A stretch of DNA of 34,786 nt, taken from a virus. Under the pieces are notes generated by a model that ran no database searches, had not been told where the DNA came from, and worked only from the letters and a program-made list of their open reading frames with translations. The stretch spans positions 1-34,786 of IMG/VR virus record IMGVR_UViG_3300048554_000248. One strand, given 5' to 3'. Below, piece by piece: positions 17,724 to 28,353 of the stretch (position 1 is the stretch's first letter; every line of letters starts with the position of its first letter). The position numbers and the translations under genes were made by a program.

Positions 17724-18296
17724 ATGAGTCGAAGTATACAAACAGGAAGTAAGAGGGGAACCTACAAGGATGGCGACCCTCACCCTTCCGTGCCTGATCG
17801 TTTCTTTGCTGTTTATCGTAAGTTTCCTGATGGCTCTCCTAAGGAGGAATGGCGCTCATTGAAGGCGCAAGAAGCTCTCAGGAAAAGACAGAAAGCTTAT
17901 AGAGATTCCCATAAGGAAGAAGCTAAGAAGTACGGTGAGAAATATCGCAGAGATAATCGGGAAGACCTTCGTGAAAAGAAAAAGGCTTACTTACAAAAAA
18001 CACTAGCGAGGCACAACGCGCGAGCAAAAGCGTATAAACATAAGAAGAGAAAAGAGTACAATAAACTTCCAAAGGAAGAACGAAAATGTGTAATTCGCTT
18101 TTATGAGGCCGCTCAACGCATCTCAAAGTGTCTCGGTGTTTCATTTCACGTCGATCATATCCAACCAATGTCAAGAGGAGGGAAACATAACCGTACAAAC
18201 CTTCAGGTTGTTCCAGCTAAATGGAATATAAGTAAATGTAATAGAAATAATGAATACTTCCCCCACAATACCTCCCCAACTCAAGAATTTTCGTAA
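17724..18296 (+). CDS. HNH endonuclease with Lys-rich repeat arm
   Basis: A 190-residue protein. Residues 50-125 are an extended Lys/Arg/Glu/Tyr arm with repeated units (KAYRDSHKEEAKKYGEKYRR, then DNREDLREKKKAY), like the DNA-binding arms of phage homing endonucleases. Residues about 130-175 hold the nuclease core: FHVDHIQPMSRGGKHNRTNL, followed by NISKCNR. The His-Asp-His, GGKH and N-L positions fit an HNH fold. Its 3' end overlaps the start of large terminase by 47 bases in another frame, so it appears wedged tightly against terL. Its arm composition resembles the minus-strand HNH gene on the other side of terL. Confidence 0.78.
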   Translation: MSRSIQTGSKRGTYKDGDPHPSVPDRFFAVYRKFPDGSPKEEWRSLKAQEALRKRQKAYRDSHKEEAKKYGEKYRRDNREDLREKKKAYLQKTLARHNARAKAYKHKKRKEYNKLPKEERKCVIRFYEAAQRISKCLGVSFHVDHIQPMSRGGKHNRTNLQVVPAKWNISKCNRNNEYFPHNTSPTQEFS

Positions 18297-19926
18297 CTTC
18301 CTGTTCCTATGCTGGAAACAGCTTAATTTACCAGACCCTACGCCGCTTCAATATGACATGGCGGATTATATGCAGCACGGAGACAAGCGTGCTATTATTC
18401 AAGCATTCCGAGGTTGTGGTAAGAGCTACATCTGCTCGGCATACGTGGTGCATCAGCTTTTGATGAATCCAAAGTTGAACATTCTTGTGGTGTCTGCGAG
18501 TAAGACACGTTCAGATGACTTCAGTACCTTCACACTTCGTCTTATCAACGAGATGGAGATACTGCAACACCTACGTCCTAAGGACAACCAAAGGCAGTCT
18601 AAGATCTCTTTCGACGTTGGGTTAGCCCCTGCCTCTCACGCGCCCTCAGTGAAGTCTCTAGGCATATCCTCGCAGCTTACAGGGTCACGTGCGGATATTA
18701 TCATTGCTGACGATATTGAGGTAGCCAATAACAGTGCTACGATGCTCATGCGGGAGAAGCTATCGGAACAGGTAAAAGAATTTGACGCTATCCTGAAGCC
18801 CGATGATACGTCCAAAGTGTTGTTCCTTGGAACACCTCAGACGTTCGATAGTATCTACACGAAGCTCCAAGAGCGGGGCTACAAGAGTCAGATTTGGCCA
18901 GCTACGCATATCACTCAGAGCCACAACGAGAAGATCTATGATGGTAACGTAGCGGACATCTGTGTGAACGCCGAGCAAGAGAACAGATCTACAGAGCCTT
19001 TGCGGTTCTCTGACGTAGACCTAGCGGAACGTAAGATCAGTTATGGATCTGCTGGATACACGATGCAGTTCATGTTGGATAGTAAGCTCTCTGACGTTGA
19101 GAAGTTTCCTCTGAAGATTTCCGACCTGATTGTAACATCTATAGACAACGAGGTGGCTCCCGAACGGTATGTTTGGGCTCGTGACCCCGATAGGGAATGG
19201 GACTCTAGTGTTCCCAATGTGGCCTTTGCAGGTGAGCGGTATTATCGTCCTTTTAAAACACTCGGAGAGATGGTTCCGTACACTGGTAGCGTGCTTGCGA
19301 TTGACCCTGCTGGTCGTGGTAAAGATGAAACTGGTTATGCGGTTTGCAAGATGCTTAACGGTACGCTCTACATTCCTGCTGCTGGTGGTCTTTCGGGTGG
19401 ATACTCCGAGGACACCCTAGTGCAACTCGCGGAGCTCGCTAAGAAACACAAGGTGAATTACATTGTCACTGAAACCAACTTTGGTGACGGTATGTTCAAT
19501 GAGCTTATCAAGCCTGTGTTGACTAGGATATACCCTGTGAGCATTGAAGAGGTCAGACACAGCACTCAGAAGGAGAAGCGTATTATCGATACTCTCGAAC
19601 CTGTAATGGCTGGTCACAGGCTTGTGGTGGATCCTGATGTTGTTAAGGATGACTTCCAGACGATCCAGAAGTATCCCCATGAGAGTCAGTTGAAGTACTC
19701 CCTGTTCTACCAGATGTCTCGCCTAACTAGAGACCGAGGGGCTATTACGCACGACGATAGGCTTGATGCTCTTAGTATTGCTGTGGCCTATTGGACGGAA
19801 CAAATGGCGCAGGATGCAGAGGTGAAAATGACTGAGCGTAGGGTAGAGTTGCTCGACAAGGAGCTAGAGAGGTTTCAAGACGCCTACTTTAAAAACAAGG
19901 GAGGATCCTCAGCACTCACTTGGTAA
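18250..19926 (+). CDS. terL: Large terminase subunit (T7 gp19-like)
   Basis: A 558-residue packaging ATPase/nuclease (T7 gp19 has 586). The Walker A motif is AFRGCGKSY with Lys58; Walker B is IIIADDIE with Asp154, Asp155 and Glu157; a coupling segment VLFLGTPQT follows. The C-terminal nuclease has Asp352 in AIDPAGRGKDETGY, a TETNFGDGMF segment, and HDDRLDALS with His501, Asp502, Asp503 and Asp506. The protein pumps concatemeric DNA into the prohead and cuts it at unit-length ends, working with small terminase (14578) and the portal, which lies outside the window. The start lies inside the preceding HNH gene. The 3' end overlaps the convergent HNH gene by 18 bases. Confidence 0.95.
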   Translation: MNTSPTIPPQLKNFRNFLFLCWKQLNLPDPTPLQYDMADYMQHGDKRAIIQAFRGCGKSYICSAYVVHQLLMNPKLNILVVSASKTRSDDFSTFTLRLINEMEILQHLRPKDNQRQSKISFDVGLAPASHAPSVKSLGISSQLTGSRADIIIADDIEVANNSATMLMREKLSEQVKEFDAILKPDDTSKVLFLGTPQTFDSIYTKLQERGYKSQIWPATHITQSHNEKIYDGNVADICVNAEQENRSTEPLRFSDVDLAERKISYGSAGYTMQFMLDSKLSDVEKFPLKISDLIVTSIDNEVAPERYVWARDPDREWDSSVPNVAFAGERYYRPFKTLGEMVPYTGSVLAIDPAGRGKDETGYAVCKMLNGTLYIPAAGGLSGGYSEDTLVQLAELAKKHKVNYIVTETNFGDGMFNELIKPVLTRIYPVSIEEVRHSTQKEKRIIDTLEPVMAGHRLVVDPDVVKDDFQTIQKYPHESQLKYSLFYQMSRLTRDRGAITHDDRLDALSIAVAYWTEQMAQDAEVKMTERRVELLDKELERFQDAYFKNKGGSSALTW

Positions 19927-21650: not shown

Positions 21651-21720
21651 GGTCGTATGATTTAATGGTAAAATTACTCCCCTATTTGGAGTACATGCAG
21701 GTTCAACCCCTGCTGCGACC
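21651..21720 (+). tRNA. tRNA or tRNA-like gene with atypical anticodon loop
   Basis: A complete 70-base cloverleaf can be drawn. The acceptor stem is GGTCGTA/TGCGACC (one G-T pair), the D stem ATTT/AAAT has loop AATGGTA, the anticodon stem is ACTCC/GGAGT, the variable loop is ACAT, and the T stem GCAGG/CCTGC has loop TTCAACC. CCA is not encoded. The anticodon loop reads CCTATTT. By position the anticodon is TAT (Ile, AUA), but base 33 is C instead of the near-universal T and base 37 is T instead of a purine. It could be a divergent phage tRNA, a degenerate copy, or the attachment site copied from a host tRNA gene. The integrase lies 2.3 kb away. Confidence 0.75.
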
Positions 21721-21778
21721 CCCTGTTGTTTTGTTATAAAAATGTGAGAGGGTATACGTATATACGCAGCGTCGAAAT

Positions 21779-21837
21779 CCCCCCGTGCCGCCCCCGATAT
21801 TGTGTGATTTGTCCGCGATTTGTCAGCACAAGGGGGG
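21779..21837. repeat. G/C-rich inverted repeat enclosing an operator-like site
   Basis: CCCCCCGTGC (21779-21788) is complementary to GCAC-AA-GGGGGG (21826-21837) apart from two unpaired bases. The 37-base interior contains the two GATTTGTC words. It could act as a cruciform or RNA hairpin, or simply frame the protein-binding site. Confidence 0.5.
21806..21824 (-). promoter_or_regulatory. Operator-like paired site, copy 1 (inverted)
   Basis: On the plus strand GATTTGTC occurs at 21806-21813 and 21817-21824, 11 bases apart. Read on the minus strand this is GACAAATCGCGGACAAATC, nearly the same as the plus-strand sites at 25669 and 25906 with the same 11-base step. It lies 47 bases upstream of a perfect TATAAT. 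A dimeric DNA-binding protein on one helix face is the simplest reading (inference). Confidence 0.5.
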
Positions 21838-21844
21838 TATCCCT

Positions 21845-21876
21845 TTGTTTTCCTAGCACATCAAGGGATATATAAT
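21845..21876 (+). promoter_or_regulatory. Candidate promoter for the second early cluster
   Basis: A perfect -10 hexamer TATAAT lies at 21871-21876. The -35 is poor: TTGTTT at 21845-21850 with 20-base spacing, or TTTTCC at 21848-21853 with 17. An activator or the nearby paired site might compensate. The transcript would have a 400-base leader before the gene at 22299. Confidence 0.35.
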
Positions 21877-21999
21877 GCCTTTGGGTGATCAATGAGTGTT
21901 ATATCAGTGTATCATGATGCGTTGATGCGTTTGGCTGTGTTTGTCAAATGCTGTGTTTTTGTCCTTGTTGCGATTGAGTCTCAGCAACACACAGCGGCT

Positions 22000-22051
22000 A
22001 CACATAGACACACATAGACACACAGAGGACACACATAGACACACACAGAGG
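22000..22051. repeat. CA-rich short tandem repeats
   Basis: The ten-base word CACATAGACA appears twice in tandem at 22001-22020 and recurs imperfectly up to about 22051, separated by CACAGAGG variants. A pyrimidine tract of CT repeats follows (about 22058-22080). It does not have the constant spacer length of a CRISPR array. It may be slippage-derived leader DNA like the shorter CA runs before the downstream genes. Confidence 0.6.
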
Positions 22052-22231
22052 CGCACTGTCTGTCTTTCTCTCTCTCTCTTATATATACAAGGCAGGTTTT
22101 TCCTAAGCATCTCAAAAAAACTTTCACGCTCTACGCCAGTAAACAAGCGGCCTCCGAAACTTTCTACAATTAATTTAAATAAAAAGCTTGCATGCATCTA
22201 TTTGTTTCTATTGGTTTGTTTCCATCGAAAG

Positions 22232-22260
22232 GGCGCGACTAGCGTCACTATAGCGACAAA
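22232..22260 (+). promoter_or_regulatory. Candidate phage RNA polymerase promoter
   Basis: TCACTATAG at 22245-22253 is identical to the core of the T7 class promoter (positions around the start site), and is followed by CGACA where T7 has GGAGA. The upstream bases (GACTAGCG) match T7 less well. It lies about 45 bases before the gene at 22299. A related 10-mer, CTATAGCGAC, occurs once more at 21359-21368 inside a gene. With a T7-type polymerase encoded here, such a site is expected, but other clear copies before late genes were not found. Confidence 0.4.
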
Positions 22261-22298
22261 CGCAACGAAACAACCACACAAATAAAACACAAATCATC

Positions 22299-22718
22299 AT
22301 GAAAACACGTAACGAAATCAAGGCCGACCTAATCGCTAACCCTAGCTTCCTGACAATTATAACGGCTAGCATCTTTCACCGCCACGCCGACATTGAGGAA
22401 GTGGTTGAATGGGCTTTATCTAACTACTCTGATTTTTGCGACATTGCGGGGCTTCAGGAGGAAGTTAAGCCAACAAAAGAGGCCGTAACTAGTGCGCAAG
22501 GGAAAGAGATAAAGGCTAGATTAACAGAAACGTTAGGCAAATCCGTGAGCATATGCAAAAACGGTAAATATAGCCTTGCGATGCACGCATTAGGAAAAAG
22601 TGACGATGAAATCAAAGCCGCGTTACTATCCAGCGGTTGCAACATACTAAAGACAGTAAAAGGCAAATTTGGCTCAGGTGCTTACGCCAACGCTCTACTT
22701 TATATCGTCACAGCTTAA
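22299..22718 (+). CDS. Early protein of unknown function (139 aa)
   Basis: A 139-residue protein, mostly helical by composition. Residues 1-50 hold two helices around IEEVVEWALSNYSDF. Residues 65-110 hold a Lys-rich part (KEIKARLTETLGKSVSICKN) that could bind DNA, and the end is SGAYANALLYIVTA. The last 70 residues, with KYSLAMHALGKSDDEIKAAL and SGCNILKTVKG, look like a small HTH-like unit but not one I can assign. It is the first gene after the non-coding control region and shares its CA-rich leader and CATCATGAAAAC start with the next small gene. Confidence 0.6.
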   Translation: MKTRNEIKADLIANPSFLTIITASIFHRHADIEEVVEWALSNYSDFCDIAGLQEEVKPTKEAVTSAQGKEIKARLTETLGKSVSICKNGKYSLAMHALGKSDDEIKAALLSSGCNILKTVKGKFGSGAYANALLYIVTA

Positions 22719-22772
22719 TTCTAATCAAAAGGGGCGGAGCATCCTACACTCCACTTTTAACTACACACACAC

Positions 22773-22807
22773 ACACACACAGAGCGCGACAGCGCGACCA
22801 ACACACA
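22773..22807. repeat. Duplicated leader element, copy 1
   Basis: A 35-base element made of a CA run, then GAGCGCGACAGCGCGACC, then CAACACACA. Copy 2 at 22934-22968 differs at two bases only. GCGC-GACA-GCGC can fold as a four-pair hairpin; in copy 2 the C-to-T change leaves a G-T pair. Both lie just upstream of small genes. It also resembles the GCGCGACTAGCG...GCGACAAAC block at 22233-22262. Confidence 0.6.
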
Positions 22808-22814
22808 CATCATC

Positions 22815-22919
22815 ATGAAAACCACACAGAAAACACTCGATGCTCTCATCTATACACTAGGCATCTTACTCGCGGGCTCTTTAGGCGCTTTGCTTATGTT
22901 CCTAGTCATAGACGTCTAA
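22815..22919 (+). CDS. Very small membrane protein
   Basis: ATG 22815 to TAA 22917-22919, 34 residues: a short charged start (MKTTQKTLDALIYT) and one transmembrane helix of about 20 residues (LGILLAGSLGALLMFLVI). The start sequence CATCATGAAAAC is the same as that of the gene at 22299 and near-identical to the one at 22986, supporting a genuine gene. Role unknown; possible membrane-active early protein. Confidence 0.5.
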   Translation: MKTTQKTLDALIYTLGILLAGSLGALLMFLVIDV

Positions 22920-22933
22920 TCAACCACACAACC

Positions 22934-22968
22934 ACACACACAGAGCGCTACAGTGCGACCAACACACA
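22934..22968. repeat. Duplicated leader element, copy 2
   Basis: Second copy of the element at 22773-22807, with G-to-T and C-to-T changes in the central GCGCTACAGTGC block. It precedes the gene at 22986 by 17 bases. The pair suggests that a leader-plus-gene module was duplicated. Confidence 0.6.
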
Positions 22969-22985
22969 ACCAAATATATAATATC

Positions 22986-23183
22986 ATGAAAACACAAGAT
23001 CAGCTCAATCACATGTACGACACAATCCTAGAACTAGGCCTTTGCACATTCGAAGAATTAGAACTAGTCACATGCATTAACGGCTTTAACGAGAATGCCC
23101 TAAATGACATTGTATATGTCCGTGAAGGATACCAAACACTCGACCAGTACTTAGTATACCTTAACGAGCAAGACCAATACTAA
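22986..23183 (+). CDS. Small acidic early protein
   Basis: A 65-residue protein starting at ATG 22986 (ATATCATGAAAAC); a further in-frame ATG at 22953 lies within the repeat leader and is less likely. The sequence LCTFEELELVTCINGFNENALNDIVYVREGYQ-like resembles short hypothetical proteins seen in marine T7-like phages, with a conserved INGxNExxLNDIxYxRxGY core, though I recall this only as an unnamed family. Strongly acidic C-terminus. Function unknown. Confidence 0.6.
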   Translation: MKTQDQLNHMYDTILELGLCTFEELELVTCINGFNENALNDIVYVREGYQTLDQYLVYLNEQDQY

Positions 23184-23214
23184 CACAACAACACATAAAA
23201 CACACCAAAATACA

Positions 23215-23424
23215 ATGAACACATCAAGAGAAACTCAACGCTTCCAAGCGTACTACATAGACTACCTGTTGAACTACGACAGCATCGGTTCCTATGCCGC
23301 CGCACACGGCCTTACATATGAGACAGCCACGCATCGCATCAAGACGGGCGAACGGGTTCATCTGTCACTAACTGAGAGTATAACTTGTGACACACTGGCC
23401 GCTACTGGCCTCGCTTTCTTCTAG
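23215..23424 (+). CDS. Small protein with possible helix-turn-helix
   Basis: A 69-residue protein. Residues about 24-48 (DSIGSYAAAHGLTYETATHR) have the spacing of a helix-turn-helix: a first helix with Ala-Ala, a Gly at the turn (AHGLT) and a recognition helix ending in ATHRIKTGE. The rest is not distinctive. If real, this is the only candidate transcription regulator in the early region and could bind the paired GACAAATC sites. The evidence is limited to pattern reading. Confidence 0.5.
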   Translation: MNTSRETQRFQAYYIDYLLNYDSIGSYAAAHGLTYETATHRIKTGERVHLSLTESITCDTLAATGLAFF

Positions 23425-23458
23425 GGCGTGCTAACGCTCACTAATCAATAAAACAACC

Positions 23459-23632
23459 ATGCAAGACATAACAGAACGCCTAAACCTAGCACGTATGCTA
23501 ATCCGCAACGCTATTGGTTCCCATCAAGGGACACCTGAATCCGCCGCAAGGTACGCTATAAGACAGCTAGACCTACCAAGCGACGTTAAACAATCACTCA
23601 TTCAATACGCAACAGAACTAAGCAACAAATAA
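23459..23632 (+). CDS. Small helical early protein
   Basis: ATG 23459 to TAA 23630-23632, 57 residues starting MQDITERLNLARML and ending ATELSNK, probably two or three helices. The leader CAATAAAACAACCATG is of the same A/C-rich type as neighbouring genes. No family recognised; it lacks Cys and membrane segments. Confidence 0.5.
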   Translation: MQDITERLNLARMLIRNAIGSHQGTPESAARYAIRQLDLPSDVKQSLIQYATELSNK

Positions 23633-23656
23633 CACACCTAAAACACACACACTATT

Positions 23657-23878
23657 ATGACACCACTACACGCACGACCTAAAGCTTACCGCAACCTTCA
23701 CAACGCACGCCGCGTATCAAATCGCGGAGGCAAATCAGAAGACACACTCGATAGAGAGTACAACAAGCAAACATCCAAGCTTATTGACGAGGGCTGGAAA
23801 GCTTTCTGGAAGAAACGCGGATTAAACAAGCCTCCTTACGTCTCAGACCGACATGTGGGTGTGTTTGATACTTTATAA
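23657..23878 (+). CDS. Small basic early protein
   Basis: A 73-residue protein with a basic N-terminal half (HARPKAYRNLHNARRVSNRG) and an aromatic Lys/Trp segment (DEGWKAFWKKRGLNKPPYV). It is behind a CACACACACTATTATG leader. Composition suggests nucleic-acid binding. The gene is the last of the small cluster before the integrase leader. Function unknown. Confidence 0.5.
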   Translation: MTPLHARPKAYRNLHNARRVSNRGGKSEDTLDREYNKQTSKLIDEGWKAFWKKRGLNKPPYVSDRHVGVFDTL

Positions 23879-23968
23879 GATAACATGAGTCAGATTGTCG
23901 CAGGTTAATATCAAAATTATACTTGAAGAACGCGCGTCACATATTATCTCAACACATTCACAGATTAG

Positions 23969-24015
23969 AATCTTTAAATATCTAAAGGGAGGATTCACAA
24001 GAAGGTTTAAAGATT
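23969..24015. repeat. Inverted repeat upstream of integrase
   Basis: AATCTTTAAA (23969-23978) and TTTAAAGATT (24006-24015) are perfect inverted copies separated by 27 bases that contain CTAAAGGGAGG. It lies 40 bases before the integrase start. Possible roles are operator for the integrase gene, arm-type sites, or an RNA hairpin. CTAAAGGGAG happens to match part of the T3 promoter, but the rest of that promoter is absent. Confidence 0.5.
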
Positions 24016-24055
24016 TAAAATAGCAACACACAAAGACACACAGAAAGACTTAAGA

Positions 24056-25078
24056 ATGAGTATCAGAAAGAGTGGGAAAAACGATAACAGATTCATGGCA
24101 GACTTCATGGTCAAAGGTGTGCGATACCGACGCCAATGGCCAACCTATGAGGAAGCCGCTGCTTGGGAGTCAGAGCTAAAGAAGAGAATACGCCTAGGGA
24201 TACCCTATACGGAACTCTTAGAAGGCACTGGTGACTTCATCACACTAGGCGAACTAGCCGACAAGACAATGATACGTTACTGGGAGGGAACAGCCAACGA
24301 AAGCACCATGCGCTCCAACGTAAAGATAATCCTTGATCACTATGGACAAGGCTACGATGTTTCTCAGCTAGACGTTGCAGCAGTGGACACCCTCATATTC
24401 GCCCTAGAGAAGAAGGGACTGGCAAAGGCTACTATAAATCGCCGCTTGTCTTGCCTGTCCAAGATCCTAACCTTCGGGGTAGATCGTGGGTTCCTTACAC
24501 ACAAGCCTAAGATAGAACAGAAGAAGCTCTCCAACGCTCGCATGCGTTTCCTTACAGAAGAGGAAGAGTACGAGATTGTTGACGCACTCGAAGCCTCTGG
24601 AAGGGATGACTTCGCGAGGTTCTTTGAATGGCAAATAGACACAGGTATGCGACCTATCGAGGCTCGTCATATACCACAAACAGCGGTGAGAGAAGACCCT
24701 GAGCACGGCTGGTTGGTTGACCTGAGCAAGACTAAGAACAACTATCCGCGCACCATATGGCTCACCGAGAGGGCTTACAAAGCTTACCTTGCTTTATCGG
24801 ATGAACAGTTCCCGTTTGCTAGGTTCACAGAAGCTAAGATAGCGAGCACTTGGAAGTTCATACGGGAAGCACTTAACGAAACAGCCGACAAGGACTTTGT
24901 GTTCTATCTTACAAGGCATACCTGCGCGTCTCGATTAGTGCAGCGCAACGTACCTCTCCAAATTGTAAAAGAATGGATGGGACACAGGAACTTTGAGATG
25001 ACCTTGAGGTACGCTAAGCTAACTCCCACTAATATGCTTGACGCAAGGAACGCTCTGGAACAACCTCACATACACTAA
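24056..25078 (+). CDS. int: Tyrosine-family integrase
   Basis: A 340-residue site-specific recombinase. The N-terminal region (1-60) is a small arm-binding type domain with basic residues. Residues about 70-160 form the core-binding helices, with FALEKKGLAKATINRRLSCL. The catalytic domain shows Arg199 (TGMRPIEARH), Lys225 or Lys227 (LSKTKNNYP), Arg287-His288 (LTRHTCASRL), His310 (WMGHRN) and nucleophile Tyr319 (TLRYAKL). The usual first His of the HxxR box is Tyr284 here. It would integrate the phage DNA at a host attB, probably a tRNA gene. Its place just before the RNA polymerase matches integrase-bearing cyanopodoviruses. It starts at a GAATG with no Shine-Dalgarno. Confidence 0.93.
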   Translation: MSIRKSGKNDNRFMADFMVKGVRYRRQWPTYEEAAAWESELKKRIRLGIPYTELLEGTGDFITLGELADKTMIRYWEGTANESTMRSNVKIILDHYGQGYDVSQLDVAAVDTLIFALEKKGLAKATINRRLSCLSKILTFGVDRGFLTHKPKIEQKKLSNARMRFLTEEEEYEIVDALEASGRDDFARFFEWQIDTGMRPIEARHIPQTAVREDPEHGWLVDLSKTKNNYPRTIWLTERAYKAYLALSDEQFPFARFTEAKIASTWKFIREALNETADKDFVFYLTRHTCASRLVQRNVPLQIVKEWMGHRNFEMTLRYAKLTPTNMLDARNALEQPHIH

Positions 25079-25086
25079 CCAACAAC

Positions 25087-25116
25087 GTGTCCTCATTTAA
25101 TTACATCTGAGGACAC
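25087..25116 (+). other. Stem-loop after integrase
   Basis: GTGTCCTCA (25087-25095) and TGAGGACAC (25108-25116) form a perfect nine-pair stem with a 12-base loop. No T-tract follows, so it is not a standard terminator. It lies 9 bases after the integrase stop; it may protect the message, be an RNase site, or bind protein. Confidence 0.55.
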
Positions 25117-25132
25117 ACACCAACCACTAATA

Positions 25133-25291
25133 ATGAAAACAGCACCAACACTATTCCAACCAACAGATATTCAATTGCTCACACGAGGGCTCAACAGTAT
25201 GACCAAAGCGTGTGAAGCCCAAGAGCGCCTTATTAAGCTCATGGAAGCAGACATAGCGGAACTCCGCGCCAAACTTAAAGACAACCAATAA
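25133..25291 (+). CDS. Small helical protein
   Basis: ATG 25133 to TAA 25289-25291, 52 residues. The N-terminus is short and uncharged (MKTAPTLFQPTDIQ). Then comes a long charged helix (EAQERLIKLMEADIAELRAK) with heptad-like spacing, probably a coiled coil. The start sequence ATGAAAACAGC resembles those of the other small early genes. Six bases separate it from the next gene. No function can be assigned. Confidence 0.5.
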   Translation: MKTAPTLFQPTDIQLLTRGLNSMTKACEAQERLIKLMEADIAELRAKLKDNQ

Positions 25292-25297
25292 AGCACT

Positions 25298-25666
25298 ATG
25301 AAACCACTAAGCAAAACACTAACAGAACTAGGTATTGATTGTGCGTTCCCTATCGAGATTATGGAAGCCAACGACAGAGTGACCTACTTCGAGGACTGTG
25401 ACGACTACTGGGAGAGGTACGAGCGTGACGTCAAGGGTCGCCCAACTTACCACGAAGACAGCAATGGCTTCTGGCAGAAGTGGAAGCGCAATGCAGATGG
25501 TGACGTTCTTTATTATGAGGACAGCACAGGCGTAAAGAAAGGCATACCTGAATCATTAACCAAACCACTAACCGAATCGAAGGAGCGTTGTGCCTTCTGT
25601 GAGAAGCCCGATGTGTACCTCAAGGGTCTCTGCCCTGTGTGTTTCGAGGATCACTACGGGGATTAG
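25298..25666 (+). CDS. Tyr/Trp-repeat protein with C-terminal zinc ribbon
   Basis: A 122-residue protein. Residues about 28-82 contain three copies of a unit of about 20 residues: YFEDCDDYWERYERDVKGRP, TYHEDSNGFWQKWKRNADGD and a shorter LYYEDSTGVKKG. They share Y-x-E-D-[SC] plus an aromatic and Lys/Arg; such repeats occur in unnamed phage proteins. The last 25 residues have Cys pairs CAFC and CPVC spaced like a zinc ribbon. The stop overlaps the paired repeat at 25663, so this gene ends directly at the regulatory region in front of the RNA polymerase. A DNA- or RNA-binding role is plausible. Confidence 0.6.
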   Translation: MKPLSKTLTELGIDCAFPIEIMEANDRVTYFEDCDDYWERYERDVKGRPTYHEDSNGFWQKWKRNADGDVLYYEDSTGVKKGIPESLTKPLTESKERCAFCEKPDVYLKGLCPVCFEDHYGD

Positions 25667-25693
25667 GTGACAAATCGCTGACAAAGTTTGTCA
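25663..25693 (+). promoter_or_regulatory. Operator-like paired site, copy 2, with palindrome
   Basis: The 23 bases at 25663-25685 recur at 25900-25922 with one mismatch. They start TTAGGTGACAAATC and carry a second GACAAA 11 bases after the first. In this copy TGACAAA is followed by one base and then TTTGTCA (25679-25693), a perfect 7+7 palindrome. The start overlaps the stop of the previous gene. Confidence 0.55.
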
Positions 25694-25707
25694 AAACAGT
25701 TAAAACA

Positions 25708-25832
25708 AAGGCAAGTAAGAGGTGACACTTAAAAGAAATTATCGTTGCAAATCAATACGTTGACATAGCTTCAAAAAAAGTTAACATATTGCTCATGGGA
25801 TGGTAAATGTCTTTATTGTCACCTCTTGCCTT
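25708..25832. repeat. Inverted repeat flanking the RNA polymerase promoter
   Basis: The left arm AAGGCAAG-TAAG-AGGTGACA (25708-25727) and the right arm TGTCACCTCTTGCCTT (25817-25832) are complementary apart from four extra bases in the left arm. They bracket the promoter candidate at 25760-25787. Sixteen paired bases at 90-base distance are unlikely to be chance; DNA looping or two facing protein sites are possible readings. Confidence 0.65.
25760..25787 (+). promoter_or_regulatory. Candidate sigma70 promoter for RNA polymerase gene
   Basis: TTGACA at 25760-25765 and TAACAT at 25782-25787 are 16 bases apart; the -35 is perfect and the -10 matches four of six. Transcription would start near 25794, giving a leader of about 140 bases that includes the inverted AGGTGACA word and the second 23-base repeat. 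Confidence 0.5.
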
Positions 25833-25899
25833 AACCCTATTGAAATATAAGCATTTTTAAACAAACACTTATCCGTTTTATTCCTAAGTATTTATTTGC

Positions 25900-25922
25900 T
25901 TAGGTGACAAATCACTGACAAA
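25900..25922 (+). promoter_or_regulatory. Operator-like paired site, copy 3
   Basis: Second copy of the 23-base repeat, differing from 25663-25685 at one base (A for G in the centre). It ends ten bases before the RNA polymerase ATG at 25933, a position where a bound protein would block transcription or translation initiation. The beginning (TTAGGTGACA) also matches the SP6 promoter core, so it could instead be a phage-polymerase promoter. Confidence 0.55.
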
Positions 25923-25932
25923 TAAATTGACT

Positions 25933-28353
25933 ATGGACACGCAGCTCACACAAGACGAACTCAACACTGACATGACCACCGTAGGCGTGGGACGCTACCG
26001 TAATAAGGTAGAGGGAGCCCGTGCTCGTGGTATGGAGAGTGAGACATCTTATGGTCAGCGACTAATACGTGGTGCGTTGCCTTCATATATCAAGGCTATT
26101 GATGAAGTAAAAACAAAGTGGCGTGGATTTAAGAACAAAGGAAGGTGGCAACTCGACCTCCTAGAGATGCCCTCTGAGAAGATTGGGTTCCTTGTTATCC
26201 GTACTGTTCTAGACCAGCTCACACAGAACTCCAAGATGACCGCTATGTGTACCAAGGTAGGCAACGTCATCGACTACCAGCGCCGCTCAGAGCACCTCGT
26301 ACGTACCAACCCAAAAGGTGAAGGGATTGTTCTAGGGGCTACCCGTAAGAGCGGCTGGCAAGCTACCAAGAACCACATCCGTCTAAGTACCAAGCACGAG
26401 GTAGAGAAGGGACTCATGGAAGAGATCCCGTCTTGGACACGTAGAGACGTAGCGGCCACAGGACTCAACCTCGTAGAACTCCTTCGGGATGTCACAGGGA
26501 TTATTGAGTACAGGTTCATTACTGATACAGGCAGACGCAACCCTACAAGGTACGTCACAGCCTCTCCAGAGACCTTAAAGTGGATAGACGAGTTCAACTA
26601 CCATAAGGAAATCATAAGCCCCTTCTGGCTCCCTACAGTGGATACACCGATGGAGTGGAAGAACGTGTGGGAAGGTGGATACAAGACAGAAGATACAGAC
26701 CTGCCTAAGCTTCCGTTCATCAAGTCAACCAACATGGACTTCCTCCGTGGTATCGAAGGTAAGATTGAAGAGCCTATGGAGGCTTGTAACCTTATCCAGC
26801 AGACACCTTGGAAGATTAACGAGGACGTCCTGAAGACAATGCAGTGGGCTTGGAAGAACTCCGTAAAGGTCGGTGGGCTTCCTAGTCGTGACGATGAGGT
26901 GATGCCTGACATCCCTGACGACTTCCATGAAAACAAACTAAGCAACCTCCAGTGGCGTACGATGGCTTCAGGGGTTCACAAGCGTAACATGAGTACACGC
27001 TCAAGACGCCTGTTGGTAGCCAAGGTGCTTTACCTAGCAGAGAAGCTTACAGATAGTCGGTTCTTCTATCCATCTCACTGCGACTTCCGAGGTCGTGTAT
27101 ATAACATCCCTGCCTTCCTAGGTATCCAAGGCCCTGATATGTGCCGTGGTCTTCTTCGGTTTGCTAGACCTCAACGTATTAAGACAGCAACAGACCGCAA
27201 GTGGTTAGCTATTCAAGGTGCTAACACTTGGGGCTACGATAAAGTCACACTCGACGAACGCGCTGAGTGGGCTGAGAACTTTTCCAAGAACGCTATCCGC
27301 ATCGCAGCAGATCCTACCAAGGAGCTACTATGGACAGAAGCGGGTGACCCTTGGCAATTCCTTGCGTGGTGCTTTGAATGGGCAACGCTACAGAACACGG
27401 GTAAGCTAGATACCTTCCTCCCAGTGAATATGGATGCCACCAATAACGGCCTTCAGATTCTTTCTATGCTTACCCGTGACCCCTACGGGATGACTGCTAC
27501 GAATGTGTTACCTACAGACAGACCAGCAGACATCTACGGGGTGGTCGCAAAACAAGCGGAGGTAATCCTTAAAGCACAAGCTGCGGAGGGTGATGCTATC
27601 TCTAATGCTTGGGTAAACTTTGGTATCGACCGTAAGACAACCAAGAGACCCGTCATGTGTTACTCGTATGGTCTTACTGAATACAGTAATCGCTTGTATA
27701 TCTCTGATTGGTATGAAGACCAGATACACGGTGAGGGCCGCACCAGACCCTTTGATGAGAAGGAGAAGTACCTTGCCATCCATGTGCTTGCTAAAGCCGT
27801 CTGGAAGGGCATTGAGAGCGTCCTAGAGAAGCCTAAGGAATGTATGAAGTGGTTCCAAGATTGTGCCGCTATACTTACTGAGGCTGATCTTCCTGTGTCT
27901 TGGGTGACACCTAGTGGCTTCCCTGTTCACCAGCAGTATTTCAACTTCACAAGTAAGAACATCAAGACTTGGATTAGCGGAACAGCTACTCACATTCGTT
28001 TTCGTGAGAATGACGATAAGCTTTCCAAGGTTCGCCAGCGTAACGGAGTGAGCCCTAACTTTGTGCACTCACTGGATGCTGCGGCTCTCCATAAGACAGT
28101 CATCAAAGCCAACAAAGAGGAGGGTATTTACGACTTTGCTTTCATCCACGATAGCTACGGAACACACGCTACAGGATGCGAAGCTTTAAGTAAAAGTTTG
28201 CGAGATGTATTTATTTCTACTTTTAGTGTTGACCTCCTGCGTGATTGGAAACATCAATTAGAACAGCAATCGGGATTAGAACTTCCTGAGCCGCCAGAAT
28301 ATGGCACTGCTGACATCTCCCAAATTAAAAATAGCACGTATTTCTTCAGTTAG
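25933..28353 (+). CDS. gp1: T7-type single-subunit RNA polymerase
   Basis: An 806-residue polymerase (T7 gp1 has 883). Start chosen at ATG 25933; a TTG two codons earlier is possible. Catalytic elements match T7: Asp501 in PVNMDATNNGLQILS (T7 Asp537), Lys571 in RKTTKRPVM (T7 Lys631), Tyr579 (T7 Tyr639) and Asp740 in FIHDSYGT (T7 Asp812). The C-terminus ends in Phe-Phe-Ser, near the functionally important C-terminal Phe-Ala of T7. It transcribes middle and late genes from its own promoters. It lies behind the repeat-rich control region, so its expression probably commits the phage to lytic growth. The gene has no Shine-Dalgarno. Confidence 0.96.
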   Translation: MDTQLTQDELNTDMTTVGVGRYRNKVEGARARGMESETSYGQRLIRGALPSYIKAIDEVKTKWRGFKNKGRWQLDLLEMPSEKIGFLVIRTVLDQLTQNSKMTAMCTKVGNVIDYQRRSEHLVRTNPKGEGIVLGATRKSGWQATKNHIRLSTKHEVEKGLMEEIPSWTRRDVAATGLNLVELLRDVTGIIEYRFITDTGRRNPTRYVTASPETLKWIDEFNYHKEIISPFWLPTVDTPMEWKNVWEGGYKTEDTDLPKLPFIKSTNMDFLRGIEGKIEEPMEACNLIQQTPWKINEDVLKTMQWAWKNSVKVGGLPSRDDEVMPDIPDDFHENKLSNLQWRTMASGVHKRNMSTRSRRLLVAKVLYLAEKLTDSRFFYPSHCDFRGRVYNIPAFLGIQGPDMCRGLLRFARPQRIKTATDRKWLAIQGANTWGYDKVTLDERAEWAENFSKNAIRIAADPTKELLWTEAGDPWQFLAWCFEWATLQNTGKLDTFLPVNMDATNNGLQILSMLTRDPYGMTATNVLPTDRPADIYGVVAKQAEVILKAQAAEGDAISNAWVNFGIDRKTTKRPVMCYSYGLTEYSNRLYISDWYEDQIHGEGRTRPFDEKEKYLAIHVLAKAVWKGIESVLEKPKECMKWFQDCAAILTEADLPVSWVTPSGFPVHQQYFNFTSKNIKTWISGTATHIRFRENDDKLSKVRQRNGVSPNFVHSLDAAALHKTVIKANKEEGIYDFAFIHDSYGTHATGCEALSKSLRDVFISTFSVDLLRDWKHQLEQQSGLELPEPPEYGTADISQIKNSTYFFS

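Follow-up and report, generated by a model that had tools for sequence, protein, structure and literature searches.

How can a T7-like phage be temperate without a known repressor, and how does it then hold its own RNA polymerase (RNAP) silent? These questions are raised by a stretch of 34,786 bp from a virus (IMG/VR record IMGVR_UViG_3300048554_000248; hereafter the window), a marine T7-like phage whose record probably does not cover the complete genome. The gene order in the window is tail genes, terminase (18250-19926), early genes, a tyrosine integrase gene (int), the RNAP gene and replication genes, and a paired GACAAATC site occurs three times, twice between int and RNAP and once, inverted, at the early region. 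What are these sites for? A first-pass annotation regarded them as the possible operator set of a lysogeny switch. Our comparison with related phages makes it likely that the three sites form one arm-type set for a recombination complex, with the N-terminal domain of the integrase as their most likely reader; two of them would serve as arms of the phage attachment site (attP), and the third is placed near the predicted genome end. Two parts of the earlier idea thus stand, namely that the sites are one set and that this set is linked to lysogeny, and the early and RNAP-side copies probably share one reader protein, as they change together between lineages; the assignment as operators does not fit the RNAP-side copies, for reasons given below.

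The exact sequence GACAAATCNNNGACAAA is present at 25669-25685 and 25906-25922 on the plus strand and at 21808-21824 on the minus strand, and there is no further match at 0-2 mismatches within the 34.8-kb record, while simple arithmetic for 14 fixed bases on two strands gives about 0.0003 expected exact matches. With up to 3 mismatches, there are 10 matches, compared to 4.0 in shuffled sequences. The half-sites follow each other in a step of 11 bp at all three sites of the window, and of 10-12 bp in other lineages. The RNAP-side sites have 23 bp in common with a single mismatch (25663-25685 versus 25900-25922), and a palindrome of 7+7 bases, TGACAAA-G-TTTGTCA, is formed at 25679-25693, whose inverted half-site is preserved in relatives. 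The three copies with their 11-bp step, the 23-bp match and the palindrome had been described correctly by the first-pass annotation, and the conservation that it called for was found as well: both RNAP-side sites are kept in 10/10 aligned close relatives at a constant spacing of 237 bp, and the third site holds its position in about 30 relatives, with one half-site often being degraded. This conservation, together with the co-variation described below, excludes a chance origin of the third site. The claimed vicinity to sigma70-like promoters was only partly borne out. A TTGACA-16-TAACAT sequence with a TTGACA that is invariant in the aligned clade does lie between the RNAP-side sites, but promoter-like matches in this region are not more frequent than in shuffled sequences (7 versus 6.9). 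Near the third site, a TATAAT can be read by eye at 21871-21876.

Judged by their sequence context, the RNAP-side sites are arm-type sites of attP. Relatives of the RNAP have like paired repeats directly before the RNAP start codon, and in many of them a piece of a tRNA gene is found between the repeats. It is the 3' half of tRNA-Leu(CAA) in L014, L017, L020, L022 and L024-L026, the 5' half of tRNA-Leu(UAA) in most of L029-L041, a 5' half of tRNA-Arg in L036/L038 and of tRNA-His in L051, and a whole tRNA-Leu in L126, all these identities being read by eye. The halves stop in or near the anticodon loop, which is a usual crossover place of tRNA-targeting integrases. In the clade of the window, the middle of attP lacks a tRNA piece and has instead a short motif with inverted arms, RRRAT-N5-ATGYC, whose centre varies, and as this motif is positioned where the relatives hold their tRNA pieces, the core of the window would be at 25797-25811. 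The centre of this putative core is hypervariable among near-identical phages (GGTAA, AGTAA, GGCTA, ACAAC, GTTAA and ACCCA in the window and L004-L019), as if close relatives had used different bacterial attachment sites (attB).

Integrated relatives agree with this assignment. T7-like RNAP genes in bacterial chromosomes are mostly without int within the surrounding 10 kb, and in five prophages (Parvibaculum, P. putida, Reyranella and two Xanthobacter) int is located on the strand of RNAP but 35-40 kb downstream, in agreement with the lengths of the contigs and unlike in phage genomes, where int stands just upstream of RNAP. At the int end of the Xanthobacter prophages, GGTGACAAATCCCGGTGACAAAACC...GGTGACAAAG is followed by a complete tRNA-Cys, and at the RNAP end a 3' remnant of tRNA-Cys is followed by GGTGACAAATGGACCTAGTGACAAATT and then by RNAP. 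In the P. putida prophage, GGGACAC repeats are present at both ends around a split tRNA-Leu. As the repeats occur at both prophage ends in Xanthobacter and P. putida, repeats of such kind flank the crossover. This split between the arms was seen in distant relatives only, as the search brought up no prophage from the clade of the window. Integration would cut RNAP off from the transcription unit of int and the early genes and from the promoter-like TTGACA at 25760. A role of the RNAP-side copies as repressor operators around an RNAP promoter, as assumed before, is thus difficult to maintain: the pair flanks an attachment core that contains tRNA pieces in relatives, and it is there that prophages are split.

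What connects the third site with attP? In about nine lineages the word that makes up the attP arms differs, and each time a pair of the lineage's own word is seen again close to the left genome end, on the minus strand. The first sign of this co-variation was seen in L206, where the attP arms are GGGACAAACCACGGACAAA and the early pair on the minus strand is CACGGACAAAGCACGGACAG. The words are TGACAAA in the window, GGACAAA in L206, TGTGGCG in L248, GTGGTC in L239, GTGTCG in LUZ100, GTGTGCC in Pasto, GTGACAAA in Lo5R7ANS, GGTGCAA in CRP-113 and GGGACAC in the P. putida prophage. Null expectations for the tested upstream regions were mostly 0-0.1, and L239 alone is weak (0.095). In a word-free test with ten lineages, the lineage's own attP was the best or joint best partner of the terminal site in 10/10 cases with 17- and 19-mers (permutation p < 1e-5) and in 7/10 cases with 22-mers (p = 3e-5), with the reservation that the attP segments of Pasto and Lo5R7ANS had been placed by their repeats, which introduces a mild circularity, and that L227 gave a tie. 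The test is strong, yet not free of choice. Since terminal sites match their own attP better than those of other lineages, it is probable that one protein reads both places.

The position of the third site is informative as well. Its surroundings were found in about 30 relatives by use of a blastn anchor, and the order is a conserved element TTTTGGTATAAAAATSTGAGRGGGTATACG, a C-rich stretch, the pair TTTGTC-NNCNN-TTTGTCA, a G-rich sequence and a -10-like TATAAT or TATAGAT. LUZ100 has an annotated terminal repeat of 244 bp at both ends; the conserved element stops directly before its right copy, and the pair occupies 90-107 of the repeat, with the first mapped (annotated) host promoter about 250 bp further on. 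In Pasto, the pairs are at 103-190 within a repeat of 271 bp, and the conserved element ends at the right end of the genome. By analogy, the left end of the window phage is expected at about 21755-21767, with the third site about 40-70 bp inside. In every lineage where the terminal pair was found, it is on the minus strand relative to int. As far as can be judged from these comparisons, the constant relation of the third site is to the genome end and not to a promoter, which speaks against the earlier proposal of a promoter operator for this copy: the site is tied to the physical end of the genome, and in LUZ100 it is part of the direct terminal repeat, ahead of the first mapped promoter. A DNA hairpin at 21720-21900 is no better than in shuffled sequences (z -0.7). 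A tRNA-Ile(TAT) gene is present at 21651-21723, immediately before the predicted genome end, and at the matching position in L014 (478-552) ARAGORN calls a 'tRNA-Stop' whose anticodon (tta) is complementary to a stop codon, possibly a suppressor tRNA or a degraded gene.

Which protein may read the sites? Among 18 genomes compared, the integrase is present in 18, a MarR-like gene in 11 and a 73-aa conserved protein in 6. The integrase is the sole candidate that occurs in every lineage, and it is the reader that we infer. Its catalytic residues (Arg, Lys, His, Arg, His and Tyr) show little or no variation among 25 homologues. The structural model has strands at 3-5, 13-19 and 22-28 and a helix at 31-47, and this predicted domain of residues 3-47 would be of the arm-binding type; the best PDB matches are the Tn1549 integrase (6en2) and lambda integrase (1z1g), the latter over its full length. 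A small winged-helix factor was also sought. The 73-aa protein was rejected as universal reader, as it is limited to the clade and missing from distant lineages; its model is helical and of low confidence, without a winged helix. The helix-turn-helix-like open reading frame (ORF) 23215 was rejected as it occurs in 7/16 relatives only. A MarR-like winged-helix protein is encoded directly upstream of int in L014, L019, L041, L206 and L248 and could be a regulator or a directionality factor. It is missing in the window's clade, and no MarR-like ORF was found in the window (an incomplete record), L121, L122, L123, L118, L125, L009, L013 and L016.

These data can be combined to a mechanism in which the pairs at 25663-25693 and 25900-25922 serve as the two attP arms around the core. 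Integration would open the genome between these arms, so that the RNAP gene comes to lie at one end of the prophage and is parted from int, from the early promoters and from the promoter-like TTGACA sequence; this separation alone should help to silence the polymerase. The third pair would be part of the terminal repeat of the virion DNA, near the predicted left end, and our preferred guess is that the recombination complex can use it to work on the genome end, either promoting circularization of the linear genome to an integrable form or keeping the terminase away from the junction. A control of early transcription by the terminal site is nearly as likely as such an action on the genome end. 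A structural role in end joining or terminase interference is favoured over that of a simple operator because the distance to the end is similar and the orientation is fixed. The more far-reaching idea, that a site for the integration complex in the terminal repeats co-evolves with attP so that the machinery acts on the ends, for circle formation or for a terminase block that diverts an infection from packaging to lysogeny, is possible but at present rather doubtful; the lysogeny decision would then be made at the DNA ends and not by a classical repressor.

Several observations do not fit well to an arm-type set, in addition to the mild circularity mentioned above. In the window's own clade the core is devoid of a tRNA piece, and the attB of the window was not found. 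When hosts were sought by means of the integrase and the tRNA half of a relative in 286 genomes from the class to which an Opitutia metagenome-assembled genome (MAG) belongs, the sole match was the MAG contig that already holds a relative. No attP is visible beside RNAP in the int-bearing L046, L171 and L215, and an Rfam search for tRNA pieces in these three and in L011 gave nothing. In HTVC019P, the same scan shows no clear arm pair between int and RNAP. A clear terminal pair is missing in the int-bearing L021, Xanthobacter, YIMV22061, RHEph21 and HTVC019P, and in the window an early promoter lies close to the third site, as would suit an operator.

What alternatives exist for arm-type sites of a recombination complex? 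The main alternative is that the sites serve a directionality factor of the Xis/Cox/Apl kind, which would bind head-to-tail to one-turn repeats, at the attachment site for excision and at the early region for transcription. Such a dual function has a precedent in Apl of phage 186, which acts at att and pR-pL through direct repeats spaced by 10-11 bp, and Apl and Cox of phage P2 both resemble the present case in that direct repeats one turn apart are used at att as well as at a second, remote part of the early region (PMC7498355), and the third site of the window indeed is located just before an early promoter. However, the second place is here tied to the terminus and not to a face-to-face promoter pair, as illustrated by LUZ100 with its distance between terminal pair and first mapped promoter, and in many lineages the core has repeats to its left and right. 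As a rule, directionality factors occupy a single arm, and the integrase is favoured over such a factor because of the repeats on both sides. Moreover, no candidate besides the integrase is common to all lineages, and no Cox/Apl homologue was identified. We therefore consider a directionality factor unlikely.

Even less probable are operators of a lysogeny repressor, such as a MarR-like regulator encoded next to int, around the RNAP and early promoters. A MarR switch has been put forward in PMC10134795 for LUZ100 and, citing Boeckman 2022, for Pasto, both of which likewise are integrase-bearing T7-like phages with repeats around the region upstream of RNAP, and a MarR-like gene accompanies int in 11/18 genomes. 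But the int-RNAP repeats of LUZ100 and Pasto match the pair in their terminal repeats, the region between the RNAP-side sites is attP, and the clade of the window lacks a MarR-like gene although its sites are as conserved as in L019, which has the gene. The repeats are also mainly direct, whereas MarR operators usually are palindromic. An assignment as arm-type sites also gives a different explanation for those repeats ahead of RNAP which were regarded as MarR operators before.

Promoters of the phage RNAP, the main competing possibility in the first-pass annotation, can practically be dismissed, although one site ends 10 bp ahead of the polymerase start codon and TTAGGTGACA matches part of the SP6 consensus, as there are only three copies in two orientations and none before late genes, the word changes along with attP, and copies flank the crossover in prophages. 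SP6-like promoters were rejected as all four AGGTGACA copies are in attP, and a repeated promoter built on GTGAGAGGGTATACG as this is a single copy in the window.

How does an arm-type set compare with known systems? An attP directly downstream of int with a tRNA target has been described for the T7-like cyanophages S-TIP37 and P-SSP7, and the integration of S-TIP37 was shown to need int and attP (PMC8776855). Integrase-bearing pelagiphages such as HTVC019P have a tRNA-type attP, with int upstream of RNAP (PMC3861242). The position of attP after int, the tRNA targets and the integration of T7-like phages are therefore already known (PMC8776855, PMC3861242, PMC10134795) and are here met in a new phage group. 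In comparison to S-TIP37, P-SSP7 and HTVC019P, the arm repeats are here described and recur near the genome end, and the core in the window's clade is not of the tRNA type. With lambda attP (P1, P2, P'1-3), the locus shares a tyrosine integrase with an N-terminal arm-binding-type domain (here predicted) and repeats that flank the core, some of them one helical turn apart; the differences are an additional copy near the predicted genome terminus, at a distance of about 4 kb, the unrelated sequence, and arm sites that are here predicted. For arm words that recur in terminal repeats, or any linked terminal site, no description was found in the literature searched, most subscription papers being outside the search.

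It has to be considered that stable lysogeny itself is doubtful for T7-like cyanophages (PMC8776855). With the attP arms being placed between int and RNAP, the act of integration may be what separates the polymerase gene from its early transcripts. From the co-varying copy in the terminal repeat, one would predict that the integration machinery and the ends of the virion DNA are physically linked. The cultured phages LUZ100, Pasto, Lo5R7ANS and CRP-113 make the link to the terminal site testable.

Table 1. Putative attachment and terminal sites of the window and neighbouring features
Feature	Position	Strand	Remarks
Predicted attP P arm (int side)	25663..25693	+	direct pair TTAGGTGACAAATCGCTGACAAA plus inverted half-site TTTGTCA; kept in 10/10 aligned close relatives
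Predicted attP P' arm (polymerase side)	25900..25922	+	direct pair TTAGGTGACAAATCACTGACAAA; ends 10 bp ahead of RNAP ATG; conserved
Single half-site AGGTGACA inside putative attP	25720..25727	+	conserved in most aligned relatives
Single inverted half-site AGGTGACA inside putative attP	25817..25824	-	conserved in most aligned relatives
Putative attP core GGGAT-GGTAA-ATGTC	25797..25811		alignment of eleven attP regions; conserved inverted arms, variable 5-bp centre
Sigma70-like TTGACA-16-TAACAT	25760..25787	+	int side of core, points at RNAP; 10/12 matches, not above shuffles
Third site, pair TGACAAATCGCGGACAAAT	21806..21824	-	conserved in place; predicted in terminal repeat, ~40-70 bp inside left genome end
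Conserved element TTTTGTTATAAAAATGTGAGAGGGTATACGTATATA	21728..21764	+	kept in ~44 matches across loci; predicted terminase cut region at terminal repeat start
Tyrosine integrase (int)	24056..25078	+	PHROG and Pfam integrase matches; N-terminal arm-binding-type domain (predicted)
Phage RNA polymerase (RNAP)	25933..28353	+	PHROG 414, E 1.7e-208; gene would be parted from int upon integration
73-aa conserved protein	23657..23878	+	immediately upstream of int

Some further features of this region should be mentioned. The 73-aa protein is found in 13/16 int-bearing relatives and is possibly an accessory or directionality factor. Between 22000 and 24060, several small early ORFs are preceded by CA-rich leaders (CACACACA...) and by a repeated AAATCATCATGAAAACA start region; a Pfam search with the small early ORFs gave nothing beyond the curated cut-offs. 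The ORF at 25298-25666 encodes an acidic protein with a zinc-ribbon-like end, and two related copies are present between int and attP in L121 (11182-12100) and in L014. In L215 (9986-11000), int adjoins RNAP with no attP between them, and the early-region repeat (TTGTCTTCTTTTTGTCA) is still present; this phage has possibly lost integration. Finally, a contig of the Opitutia MAG (L085, 2300-2730) encodes an RNAP of 39% identity and has an attP with GGTCAC arms and a 5' half of tRNA-Leu(CAA), which is a hint at Verrucomicrobiota as the hosts of at least some relatives.

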